A DNA stretch of 64,000 nt from Muribaculum sp. (lineage in GTDB: Bacteria > Bacteroidota > Bacteroidia > Bacteroidales > Muribaculaceae): contig JAMPAZ010000001.1 in the NCBI GenBank assembly GCA_023666965.1, positions 415,738 to 479,737 of the forward strand. Reading direction: 5' to 3'. Below are positions 30,514 to 64,000 of this stretch, piece after piece (positions within the stretch are counted from its first letter, which is position 1; each line of letters begins with the position of its first letter). The position numbers were made by a program, and so were the translations under genes. The notes beneath the pieces are model-generated. The model was not told where the DNA came from. It did no database searches and saw only the letters and a program-made list of their open reading frames with translations.

Positions 30514-30598
30514 GTGTCAAAAGACGAATAGATTCTTAAAGAAGCTTAAAAATTGCATAGCCGGGCAAATCGGTCTCCAGACCGATTTGCCCGGCTAT
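30514..30598. repeat. Solitary palindromic REP-like element after the GH51 genes
   Basis: A perfect palindrome with 20-base arms and a 2-base loop (30557-30576, CC, 30579-30598). The inner arms contain CCGGGCAAATCGGTC, the same core as the palindromes near 54.6-56.1 kb and 64 kb. The left flank also matches that family: a TGTGTCAAAA box (30514 onward) and TTCTTAAAGAAGC...ATTG, close to the flank of the copy at 55100. The foot tetranucleotide is ATAG on both sides instead of GTAG. It lies 61 bases past the gene end. Confidence 0.8.
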
Positions 30599-54478: not shown

Positions 54479-54581
54479 GTTACTCCACGTTGGCGGTTAC
54501 GAGGATGAACGAATCTGAAAGATTCGCAAATCGTTAATCCACGTTGGTTGATTACGAGAATGAACGAATCTGAAAGATTCG
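54479..54581. repeat. Tandem pair of ~54-base units with mini-hairpins
   Basis: Two adjacent copies of a unit that begins CGTTA.TCCACGTTGG, continues as GA.GAACGAATCTGAAAGATTCG and ends there (about 54479-54526 and 54532-54581). Each carries the same 15-base hairpin GAATCTGAAAGATTC (54511-54525, 54566-54580), which is one form of the mini-hairpin found at the outer side of the neighbouring palindromes. Confidence 0.75.
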
Positions 54582-54780
54582 TCAGTTTGTGTAGCCGGGT
54601 AAAGCGGTCGTCAGACCGATTTGCCCGGTCCAAATTTGAACGGCAGAAAAATCTGAAAAGATTTTTTTCTGGTCGTCAAGATGTTAAATCTTTGCAGATT
54701 TAATTTCGGCTCTACAATATACCGGTCATTGTCGCTTCGCGCCAATACCCGGCTACACAAATTTAGCATCTTTCAGATGC
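54566..54780. repeat. First inverted pair of REP-like elements (BIME-like)
   Basis: Order on the plus strand: outer mini-hairpin (54566-54580), GTAG foot (54591-54594), palindrome with 15-base arms CCGGGTAAAGCGGTC / GACCGATTTGCCCGG and GTCA loop (54595-54628), inner hairpin AAATCT-GAAA-AGATTT (54649-54664), inner hairpin AAATCT-TTGC-AGATTT (54686-54701), then on the minus strand a second-type palindrome (54722-54752) with its own GTAG foot (54756-54753), and an outer mini-hairpin GCATCTTTCAGATGC (54766-54780). The two halves are mirror images in layout but carry different palindromes. Confidence 0.85.
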
Positions 54781-54831
54781 GATATTTACATTTTGACACA
54801 AGTTTTTTGCACCATCGCACATCGGCCAACT

Positions 54832-55088
54832 GCTGAAAGAAGAAAAATTGGCGGATAGCATCACGTCATTCCCGGACGGCTTCTGAAACTTAGAAATTGA
54901 CGGATAGCATCGCGACACTCTCGGACGACTTCTGAAACTTAGAAATCTACGGATTAGACCGCACCATTCTCGGACGACTTCTGAAACTTAGAAATCTACG
55001 GATTAGACCGCACCATTCTCGGACGACTTCTGAAACTTAAAAATTGGCGTATTAGACCGCACTATTCCCGGACGGCTTCTGAAAGAAG
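54832..55088. repeat. Minisatellite: five 49-base units plus a partial sixth
   Basis: Head-to-tail units at 54832-54880, 54881-54929, 54930-54978, 54979-55027 and 55028-55076, with a partial unit at 55077-55088. Units three and four are identical; the others differ at several bases. Each starts TTCTGAAACTTAGAAA or a variant and ends CGGACGAC or CGGACGGC. The partial unit forms the left flank of the palindrome at 55100. No coding frame runs through it. Variation between units points to expansion by recombination or slippage. Confidence 0.9.
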
Positions 55089-55099
55089 CGCAAAATTGT

Positions 55100-55175
55100 G
55101 TAGCCGGGTAAAGCGGTCGTCAGACCGATTTGCCCGGTTTTAGATTGGTGAATACACTTAATCTGCAAAGATTTA
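55100..55175 (+). repeat. REP-like element on the 3' side of the transposase gene
   Basis: GTAG foot (55100-55103) plus the same palindrome as at 54591: bases 55100-55138 are identical to 54591-54629. Inner hairpin AATCT-GCAA-AGATT at 55160-55173. It ends 26 bases from the transposase stop codon. Confidence 0.88.
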
Positions 55176-55200
55176 ATAATTAATCATTAATGTCAAGAAT

Positions 55201-55641
55201 CTATTTAGGAAAGTACGGTTCATCAGGTGAAACTCCATTCTCCAACAACCAATTGCGGTATTCATCCCGAAAAGAAATCTTTTTATGATGTTCTTTCTGA
55301 TTCAAAATATATCGCTTGATTTGCGGTAAATTTTCATAGCTACAAGTGAATGCGCCATATCCTTCTTGCCAACCGGGCCAACCTTCTATTACAGCAACGG
55401 CACTGGCGCTTGATTCACGCTTAACGGCCTGTGCAAATTTACTGACAGCAATCGTTGCAGGAATGCCGATTAGTATATGCACATGATCCGGCATACCTCC
55501 AATTCGGATAACCTCGCCGTTGTATTTCCGCATCACATTATATAATATTATATATAAATCGCGTTCAACGTTTGGCCCAATAACAGTTTGCCTATCTTTG
55601 GGAGAGAACACAATATGGTAATATAGTTTTGTAAAACTCAT
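55201..55641 (-). CDS. HUH/Y1 transposase, probable REP-associated tyrosine transposase (RAYT)
   Basis: A 146-residue single-domain protein of the IS200/IS605 TnpA superfamily. The metal-binding HUH motif is H53-V-H55 in PDHVHILIG and the nucleophile is most likely Y111 in IKRYILNQKEHH. Such enzymes nick and join single-stranded DNA next to hairpins. Start at 55641 because the frame upstream to 55734 runs into the flanking palindrome and has no domain content. It is a lone gene: no TnpB or other partner is encoded nearby. It is bracketed by identical GTAG-footed palindromes in inverted orientation (55100-55138 and 55726-55764), the arrangement of REP-associated transposases rather than of a simple IS200 copy. 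An ordinary IS200-like element cannot be fully ruled out. Confidence 0.85.
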   Translation of the reverse strand: MSFTKLYYHIVFSPKDRQTVIGPNVERDLYIILYNVMRKYNGEVIRIGGMPDHVHILIGIPATIAVSKFAQAVKRESSASAVAVIEGWPGWQEGYGAFTCSYENLPQIKRYILNQKEHHKKISFRDEYRNWLLENGVSPDEPYFPK

Positions 55642-55646
55642 GATTG

Positions 55647-55654
55647 CAAATATA
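55647..55654 (-). promoter_or_regulatory. -7-like box immediately before the transposase start
   Basis: Minus-strand TATATTTG (55654-55647) fits TAnnTTTG but ends only five bases before the ATG at 55641, so a transcript would begin at or beside the start codon. No -33 TTTG is seen. If real, the message would be nearly leaderless. Confidence 0.3.
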
Positions 55655-55690
55655 CGCAATTTATTTTGGTATATTAATATGTCTATCGAA

Positions 55691-55789
55691 AAATCTTTGC
55701 AGATTATTTCATTGTTCGGACATGAACCGGGCAAATCGGTCTGACGACCGCTTTACCCGGCTACACATTTTTCCGAATCCTTCAGATTA
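55691..55789 (-). repeat. REP-like element on the 5' side of the transposase gene
   Basis: Mirror of the element at 55100: inner hairpin AAATCT-TTGC-AGATT (55691-55705), palindrome 55726-55764 that is the exact reverse complement of 55100-55138, GTAG foot read from 55764, then an imperfect outer mini-hairpin GAATCCTTCAGATT (55775-55788). Confidence 0.88.
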
Positions 55790-55824
55790 GTCAACAGGAC
55801 ATCAACCACATGGAGATACAGTTT

Positions 55825-55893
55825 GCAAATCTTTCAGAAGGGCATCAGGGCGTGAATCATTCGGCTACACAGTTTTGCGAATCTTTCAGATTC
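55825..55893. repeat. Truncated REP remnants
   Basis: CAAATCTTTCAGAAG (around 55826-55840) is a decayed outer mini-hairpin. At 55860-55893 a CGGCTACACAGTTTTGC stretch, equal to the end of a palindrome plus its foot and spacer, is followed by a perfect GAATCTTTCAGATTC hairpin (55879-55893) with no palindrome before it. These look like deletion products of full elements. Confidence 0.6.
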
Positions 55894-55948
55894 ATCATCT
55901 CAGCATATTTGGGGACAAAAAAAGACGGTATGTCAAAATGCAATTGTC

Positions 55949-56166
55949 GCATCTGAAAGATGCACAAAATTGATTAGCCGGGGATTGGCGCAACGCGCCT
56001 ATCTCCGGTTTATGTTTGAAACAGCAATAAAATCTGGAAAGATTTAACAAATTATTAATCAACCATAAATCTTTGCAGATTTCGCGTATTACTCTAATAT
56101 AAAACCGGGCAAATCGGTCTAACGACCGCTTTGCCCGGCTACACAAGTTTAGCATCTTTCAGATGC
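55949..56166. repeat. Third inverted pair of REP-like elements
   Basis: Outer hairpin GCATCTGAAAGATGC (55949-55963); second-type palindrome with arms CCGGGGATTGGCGC / GCGCCTATCTCCGG (55978-56008) and foot TTAG; inner hairpin AAATCT-GGAA-AGATTT (56030-56045); inner hairpin AAATCT-TTGC-AGATTT (56067-56082); first-type palindrome on the minus strand (56104-56142) with GTAG foot; outer hairpin GCATCTTTCAGATGC (56152-56166). It ends 37 bases past the stop codon of the large secreted protein, so it lies in the 3' part of that transcript. Bases 55971-56083 recur at 63853-63965 with two differences in 113. Confidence 0.9.
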
Positions 56167-63852: not shown

Positions 63853-64000
63853 TGATTAGCCGGGGATTGGCGCAACGCGCCTATCTCCGGTTTATGTTTG
63901 AAACAGCAATAAAATCTGGAAAGATTTAACAACTTATTAATCAACAATAAATCTTTGCAGATTTCACATATCACCACAATCTAAACCGGGCAAATCGGTC
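63853..64000. repeat. REP-like inverted pair, cut by the window end
   Basis: Second-type palindrome (63860-63890, foot TTAG), inner hairpins at 63912-63927 and 63949-63964, and the first half of a first-type palindrome (63985-64000). The first 113 bases match 55971-56083 except for two substitutions. The outer mini-hairpin expected to the left is missing here. The stretch 63671-63852 holds no gene I can support. Confidence 0.88.

Follow-up and report, generated by a model that had tools for sequence, protein, structure and literature searches.

Repetitive extragenic palindromic (REP)-like tagged hairpins around a subclass 1.2-type TnpA gene and across a Muribaculum genome

The locus described here lies in a stretch of 64,000 nucleotides from Muribaculum sp. 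(assembly GCA_023666965.1, contig JAMPAZ010000001.1, positions 415,738 to 479,737; hereafter the window), and consists of a Y1 (HUH) transposase gene, tnpA, and of a set of hairpins resembling REP sequences. Between 54.6 and 56.2 kb of the window, three inverted pairs of bulged hairpins were found, 54591(+)/54756(-), 55100(+)/55764(-) and 55974(+)/56142(-), the middle one enclosing tnpA, an open reading frame (ORF) of 146 aa placed on the minus strand, with its ATG at 55641 and its stop at 55201. Both hairpins of this middle pair, at 55100 and at 55764, carry the tetranucleotide GTAG, referred to below as the tag. An initial annotation, made from the sequence alone, had described the three pairs with the enclosed Y1 gene, a solitary copy at 30.55 kb and a partial pair at 63.85-64 kb. 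The coordinates and a Pfam Y1_Tnp score of 85.5 bits (cut-off, 23) bore out the first of these descriptions, and the other two proved to be a perfect palindrome and a partial unit starting at 63856, respectively (Table 1). In addition, a 49-bp tandem repeat present five times at 54845-55089 adjoins the left tnpA bracket and includes a CTTCTGAAA piece that resembles half of the small palindrome.

Table 1. Features of the tnpA locus and of related elements in the window (window coordinates)
Feature	Position	Strand	Remarks
tnpA, Y1 (HUH) transposase, subclass 1.2 type	55201..55641	-	DHVH, W91-Q92, YILNQKEHH; motifs compared with those given in Table 1 of PMC6006769
Tagged hairpin, type A	55100..55137	+	GTAG + 34-nt bulged hairpin; one tnpA bracket
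Tagged hairpin, type A, inverted	55727..55764	-	Other tnpA bracket
Tagged hairpin, type A	54591..54628	+	First pair
Tagged hairpin, other stem type	54722..54756	-	GTAGCCGGGTATTGGCGCG...; first pair
Tagged hairpin, type B	55974..56008	+	TTAG + CCGGGGATTGGCGC...; third pair
Tagged hairpin, type A	56105..56142	-	Third pair
Outer small palindrome	55075..55089		GCTTCTGAAAGAAGC; left of tnpA bracket
Inner small palindrome, left	55159..55174		AATCTGCAAAGATT
Inner small palindrome, right	55691..55706		Mirror copy
Complete mirrored non-autonomous unit	55929..56187		Gene-free; outer ends ...GTCAAAAT / ATTTTAACACA
Lone perfect palindrome	30557..30598		Tag at both feet (ATAG ... CTAT)
Tagged hairpin, type B	63856..63890	+	Partial unit at window end

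These hairpins recur in the genome far above chance. A half unit of 103 bases produced at least 42 matches at E<=0.001, a count that is a lower bound since 40 of the 78 first-look candidates were scored, and the 14-base outer end GGSTGTGTCAAAAT was present at 97 sites with at most one mismatch, versus none for a reversed control pattern. The 30 half-unit match places that were read revealed a mirrored element of about 260 bp as the repeated unit, so that the 39-base core proposed in the initial annotation does recur, but as a portion of something larger. Each half unit begins on the outside with the end GGSTGTGTCAAAAT and continues inwards with a small palindrome (for example GCTTCTGAAAGAAGC), some 10 nt, the tag, a hairpin opening with CCGGG, about 30 nt and a second, inner small palindrome (for example AATCTGCAAAGATT), after which the mirror image follows. 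Thirty of the 97 outer-end sites were also read, and several of them corresponded to a single half or to a shortened form. Among 53 distinct hairpins preserving the outer small palindrome, 48 had NTAG at the outer 5′ foot, the tags being GTAG in 23 cases, ATAG in 18, TTAG in seven and others in five. The whole-genome search, set beforehand as a test of the initial annotation, thus returned many copies, and the family is mostly intergenic: 3 of 56 distinct hairpins lay mostly within an ORF of at least 100 aa, such ORFs making up 79% of the bases examined. When the 149 genomes of the family were searched for the half unit, taken here as 102 bases, with at most six first-look candidates scored per genome, it was found in two, namely this genome and another one with a weak match.

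The edges of the dispersed units were inspected as well. In 15 full-unit end pairs, two of which came from one place (L030), the inner edge was not flanked by identical stretches of 3-9 nt, and at a 2-nt offset the same pairs gave a single 4-nt match, with 0.12 expected. Moreover, 9 of 84 outer ends abutted the broken outer half of another unit near its tag, compared with 0.43% of random points in the same loci, which is a hint, and not a proof, of cutting or targeting at the tag. These nine ends belonged to L008 (two), L020, L026, L173, L185, L188, L197 and L199, the break being located at the tag or a few bases from it. Other observations concern the variety of these elements. Palindromes of about 60 bp composed of two GGSTGTGTCAAAAT ends and little in between (L176/L177 and L195) are possibly terminators or internal deletions, another GTAG-tagged hairpin type, GTAGCCGGGGG...CCCCCGG, occurred at L012 (C44:25489) and L015 (C11:372478), and runs of N interrupted the dispersed units of L183, L188 and L196.

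As to the transposase, motifs, curated models and a phylogenetic tree all agree with TnpA subclass 1.2, a branch on the IS200 side. The protein passed the NCBIfam IS200/IS605 model (74.3 bits; cut-off, 55) and failed the REP-transposase model (21.6 bits; cut-off, 80). It presents the motif set of subclass 1.2 (Y---Q--HH, WQ, DH[IV]H and a length of about 148 aa) in the form of YILNQKEHH, WQ, DHVH and 146 aa, and YILNQKEHH stands where class 2, that of the REP-associated tyrosine transposases (RAYTs), has Y---NP. In a tree of 63 proteins, excluding the reference rows L281 and L284, one branch split off the 14 class-2 rows (support 100/98) and another the ten IS200/IS605 (subclass 1.1) proteins (90/100); the window protein fell outside both groups, and its five nearest rows were all 1.2-like, a label given here by similarity to the window protein and not taken from the set of Quentin et al. 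The 39 1.2-like rows were not recovered as one clade (2 changes). Its nearest named homologues came from Muribaculaceae and other Bacteroidales assemblies. Of the IS200/IS605 traits, neither W[TS] nor several near-identical copies nor an adjacent tnpB was found for the window gene, no tnpB being recognised among the ORFs of at least 80 aa in 52-64 kb.

The protein is therefore not a RAYT, since the REP-transposase model failed, Y---NP is missing and its position is outside the class-2 branch; a plain RAYT was accordingly ruled out by model, Y motif and tree. An ordinary IS200 copy was likewise ruled out by WQ, by the lack of a recognised tnpB and by the position outside the 1.1 group. What had been proposed at the outset, a RAYT system with scattered hairpins, survives in its description of a dispersed, GTAG-tagged family resembling REPs and bacterial interspersed mosaic elements (BIMEs), with a transposase inside a mirrored pair, and loses the RAYT identity, as the expected position in the RAYT clade was contradicted by the tree. 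The two outcomes that had been held to count against the proposal did not occur: hairpins are also found elsewhere than at the ends of complete copies, and the transposase does not group within the mobile IS200 clade.

Of the 149 genomes of the family, 73 had a homologue of the window protein (E<=1e-8), as did 209 of the 393 examined from the order (E<=1e-20) and 97 of the 198 in a phylum set lying outside the order (E<=1e-10). The layout around their genes was examined in 301 loci with at least 120 bases on both flanks, drawn from six sets and not dereplicated (L037 and L255 are one place, and L052 and L124, for example, share protein and flank hairpins). A relaxed scan revealed an outward-facing NTA[AG]CC hairpin on both sides of 85 loci and on at least one side of 141, versus two loci with the inward-facing motif on both sides and a two-sided mean of 3.4 for 31 other motif classes. 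Two-sided cases amounted to 15/29 in the family set, 12/22 among extra family copies, 20/59 among held-out family loci, 19/79 in named genomes, 18/84 in the order and 1/28 in the phylum set, the layout being common in the family of the window, less frequent in the order and rare in the phylum set. A strict scan found the two-sided NTA[AG]CC motif in 54 of 161 loci (nine other motifs, 0-3), in 19 of 59 held-out loci (17 other motifs, 0-1 bar one with 8) and in 12 of 84 loci of a second held-out set, that of the order (31 other classes, at most 2 except one with 4). As controls, the strict motif occurred on both sides of 8 of 1309 ORFs from the same genomes, in stretches that include some tnpA loci, and of none of ten class 1.1 (IS200/IS605) genes, two of which had it on at least one side, and none of 13 class-2 genes.

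At 123 of 144 ends, a small palindrome was present on the outer side of the tag, no more than 40 nt away, compared with 9 of 144 after shuffling. A matched-pair hairpin search found a similar inverted pair in 55 of 157 loci, none of them from the phylum set, with TA[AG] at both outer feet in 20 of these pairs and at both inner feet in none; the first trinucleotide test was positive on both sides at the outer position in 42 of 135 loci and at the inner one in 7. A large minority of related tnpA genes are flanked by outward NTA[AG]-CC hairpins, whose sequence varied between genomes and whose tag was constant. In the 130 loci devoid of the strict motif, several 5-7-mers common to both flanks corresponded to small palindromes, and GGTAG faced outward on both sides in 14; therefore, the thresholds probably miss weaker forms. 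Six loci (L100, L109, L130, L132, L134 and L443) showed a small palindrome that was separated by roughly 10 nt from a piece resembling GGTAGAAA, with no second hairpin, possibly a different tag layout. Further TAG pairs on both sides came from L085 and L101, in records labelled Akkermansia and Verrucomicrobiia.

The comparison of tags with proteins suggested that the transposase may read the fourth letter of the tag. The two sides agreed in this letter at 50 of 54 loci, and a scan of alignment columns against it ranked residues 92 and 13 first. In the discovery set, S, A or T occupied residue 13 in 15 of 16 TAG cases and in 2 of 32 TAA cases (p 1.9e-9), and Q or E occupied residue 92 in 13 of 16 and 0 of 32, respectively. 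Position 13 and its S/A/T set were chosen before the held-out loci were obtained, and in the held-out family set the same residues were found in 6/6 TAG and 1/10 TAA cases (p 8.7e-4), the values for residue 92 being 3/6 and 0/10 (p 0.036). Over all 69 distinct proteins, the only test from which identical proteins were removed, the proportions were 20/23 and 3/46 for residue 13 and 16/23 and 0/46 for residue 92. The first tag tree (76 rows) included one-sided tag calls, and the later tests used the same letter on both sides. In the alignment with E. coli RayT, W91-Q92 fell on W94-Q95 and S13 on N19. The tag contacts described for E. coli TnpA-REP involve the beta-1 region, the surroundings of beta-4 and the C-terminus, Q95 being named among them (Corneloup et al. 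2021, PMC8266576), and residue 13 would lie in the beta-1 region, to judge from its location before the HUH motif.

Evidence of mobility came from a relative, genome G056, in which two copies of the gene and both of its ends were 99% identical over about 840 bp and had unrelated flanks. The suggestion that the system was possibly domesticated is, in view of this duplication, unsupported and unneeded. Ten other genomes, each sampled in part, were examined for dispersed copies of the tnpA flanks, located at a distance from the gene: there were 10 in 160 kb of G037 (62 per Mb), 3 in 115 kb of G131, 2 in 120 kb of G125, 1 in 68 kb of G142 and 1 in 160 kb of G095, with none in G117 (200 kb), G040 (180 kb), G062 (60 kb) or G013 (40 kb), nor in the 20 kb sampled of G051. 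A universal dispersal of the hairpins is weakened by this lack of copies in four of nine part-sampled genomes and in G051, and the range observed would be expected of transposons that only sometimes shed non-autonomous copies. The hairpin unit of G037 gave eight matches in its own genome and short, weak ones in 7 of 148 others, at most five candidates being scored per genome.

Given the anatomy, the copy number and the intergenic bias demonstrated for the hairpins, and the placement of the protein, the locus probably represents a system of REP-like repeats operated by a subclass 1.2 TnpA, close to but distinct from both IS200/IS605 and RAYTs. The autonomous unit would be tnpA within a mirrored pair of ends, each of them formed by a small palindrome and, about 10 nt further on, the 4-nt tag NTA[AG] with a bulged hairpin whose first bases are CC. 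TnpA would probably bind the tagged hairpin when it is exposed as a single strand and read the tag, which may also guide the cut; 'guide' sequences of IS608 and the GTAG of one RAYT are described as guiding cutting (PMC8266576). The enzyme would then probably cut and join single strands, a manner of joining that would not duplicate the target, which agrees with the flanks observed. The ends would also spread without the gene, giving rise to the mirrored units of about 260 bp and to the shorter remnants found between genes in this genome, and we infer that they were moved by this TnpA rather than by another enzyme. It is also about as likely as not that subclass 1.2 constitutes a second REP-making lineage, apart from the RAYTs and on the IS200 side of the Y1 family, whose proteins would recognise their hairpins by reading a four-letter tag, its last letter being set by residue 13, in the beta-1 region, together with the residue that follows the conserved Trp.

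Several observations weigh against this interpretation. The GGCTGTGTCAAAAT ends of many dispersed units are missing from the window copy of tnpA, 216 of the 301 loci had no motif on at least one side, and outside the order, in the phylum set, the two-sided motif was rare (1/28). In the relaxed scan, the largest other class was NAA[CT]CC, with 2, 8, 13 and 8 cases in four sets out of six, counts to which its one-base overlap with TAACCC may contribute, and NAA[AG]CC appeared in 8 of the 59 held-out loci. The sensitivity of the scan to other layouts was limited, as the GT[AG]G hairpin pair was detected at none of the 13 class-2 genes, and therefore the scan says little about class 2. Dispersal is not general, ranging genome by genome from none seen to extensive. 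As regards the tag, the two TAG loci tested from the order set depart from the rule, since residue 13 is R in both, and in one of them residue 92 is A. Only 6-11 changes of the tag were counted on the trees, and the four tree tests yielded no more than 4-5 supported independent pairs: for residue 13, 4.0 in the same direction and 0 in the opposite one of 5, and for residue 92, 1.6 and 0, significance being unreachable in both cases, so that the association of tag and residue lost significance once phylogeny was taken into account. Finally, a second Y1 gene, of RAYT type, is present in the same genome.

The conserved outer ends raise the question of whether the dispersed units are instead miniature forms derived from an insertion sequence (IS) of the cut-and-paste, DDE type, with GAGGCTGTGTCAAAAT as terminal inverted repeat and the hairpins and tnpA as cargo, an explanation that we consider unlikely. 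The 97 sites against none for the reversed control are what a terminal inverted repeat of a DDE-type miniature inverted-repeat transposable element would produce, some very short forms consist of barely more than two outer ends (L176 and L195), and a copy of the outer end with two mismatches was found inside two of three DDE loci, of about 3.3 kb each. However, the 15 end pairs without identical 3-9 nt at the inner edge give no sign of the target-site duplication that such elements leave, and DDE_Tnp_1, the only DDE model searched, had three matches in this genome, one of them below cut-off, with the exact outer end in none of the three loci. Moreover, the window copy of tnpA has no such DDE-like outer ends, and the feature that recurs in relatives is the tagged hairpin around tnpA.

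A candidate enzyme of another kind is the second Y1 gene itself, at C8:674-1123 (locus L292). Pfam Y1_Tnp gave a single match in this genome (completeness, 83%), and the view that the window tnpA was its sole Y1 gene was overturned when the REP-transposase model matched C8:674-1123 with 44.5 bits, below its cut-off. By eye, this class-2-like gene resembles subclass 2.4, and it is placed within an apparent type III restriction locus. The existence of such a gene, and the fact that GTAG is the canonical RAYT tag (PMC8266576, PMC3733652), would agree with hairpins moved by this RAYT and a subclass 1.2 gene travelling as a passenger inside the repeat. But its 2.6-kb locus carries repeats of its own, GTAGGGACGTGCC and GGCATGTCCCTAC, one copy of which falls within its reading frame, and no tagged hairpin of the CCGGG type was seen in it; in addition, subclass 1.2 genes and outward tagged hairpins are paired in dozens of loci, which makes this alternative highly improbable. 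Two families of hairpins, each with a different enzyme, thus appear to coexist in this genome. The least probable reading of all, that the units are chiefly transcription terminators or RNA 3′-end structures amplified by recombination and only incidentally linked to tnpA, would account for the mostly intergenic copies and for some short palindromes with the outer end that resemble bidirectional terminators (L187 and L195), but it leaves unexplained why tnpA has on either side outward-facing hairpins, unrelated in sequence yet provided with a fixed tag, as well as the association of tag and residues.

A REP-like system run by a subclass 1.2 TnpA can be compared with the systems already described. 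The window protein shares with subclass 1.2 its length, DHVH, WQ, YxxxQxxHH, the occurrence in Bacteroidota and a low copy number in its genome. This subclass is described as devoid of both REP and IS properties (Quentin et al. 2018, PMC6006769), whereas this gene and many relatives are bracketed by tagged hairpins (two-sided in 85/301) and one relative has unit copies 99% identical. The likeness to RAYT/TnpA-REP systems of class 2 (E. coli rayT, with REPs, paired REPs (REPINs) and BIMEs) resides in the inverted tagged hairpins around the gene, the bulged stems, the tag at the outer 5′ foot, the dispersed intergenic pairs and the three hairpin pairs at the gene, as depicted for the E. coli REPtron (PMC6006769). 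The differences lie in placement, in the catalytic motif, Y---Q--HH instead of Y---NP, in the tag across relatives, NTA[AG] instead of GT[AG]G, and in the small palindromes flanking the tagged hairpin within units of about 260 bp. Similarly, IS200/IS605 (1.1) elements resemble the present system in the IS200 model passed, in Y---Q (YILNQ), in hairpin ends and in a gene that can be duplicated with its ends as a unit, and differ from it in the WQ found here instead of W[TS], in the lack of a recognised tnpB alongside, in the position outside the 1.1 tree group and in the mirrored ends with tagged hairpins, a pair found at 0/10 class 1.1 loci. The hairpins of this genome also have the properties of the GTAG super-family of REPs, with the tag at one foot, multiple and mostly extragenic copies, and they share inverted dimers with the GTAG-tagged palindromic repeats surveyed in PMC3733652. 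In that survey, GTAG repeats are recorded for Proteobacteria, Cyanobacteria, Chloroflexi and the Planctomycetes-Verrucomicrobia-Chlamydiae group, and Bacteroidetes are named only under CGTC repeats, whereas GTAG repeats were found here in a Bacteroidales genome.

REP repeats and their transposases are known mostly from class-2 proteins, and their origin from IS200-like ancestors is presented as an open question in PMC8266576. Within open-licence PubMed Central, no title or abstract opening was found that linked subclass 1.2 proteins with REP-like hairpins; the interest of the present case lies in REP-like tagged hairpins on a different transposase branch. Tagged, dispersed hairpins on a branch beside IS200 would be an intermediate or a parallel case for the origin of REPs. 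If subclass 1.2 is indeed a second REP-making lineage, the reading of the tag either predates the split of the two lineages or arose twice, and the pairing of tag and residues offers a simple two-residue bench test. Furthermore, these findings would suggest a substrate for a group of proteins that is present in 209 of 393 genomes of the order and to which the source paper assigned no REP, and would help annotators to account for a group of intergenic hairpins in genomes of this kind.

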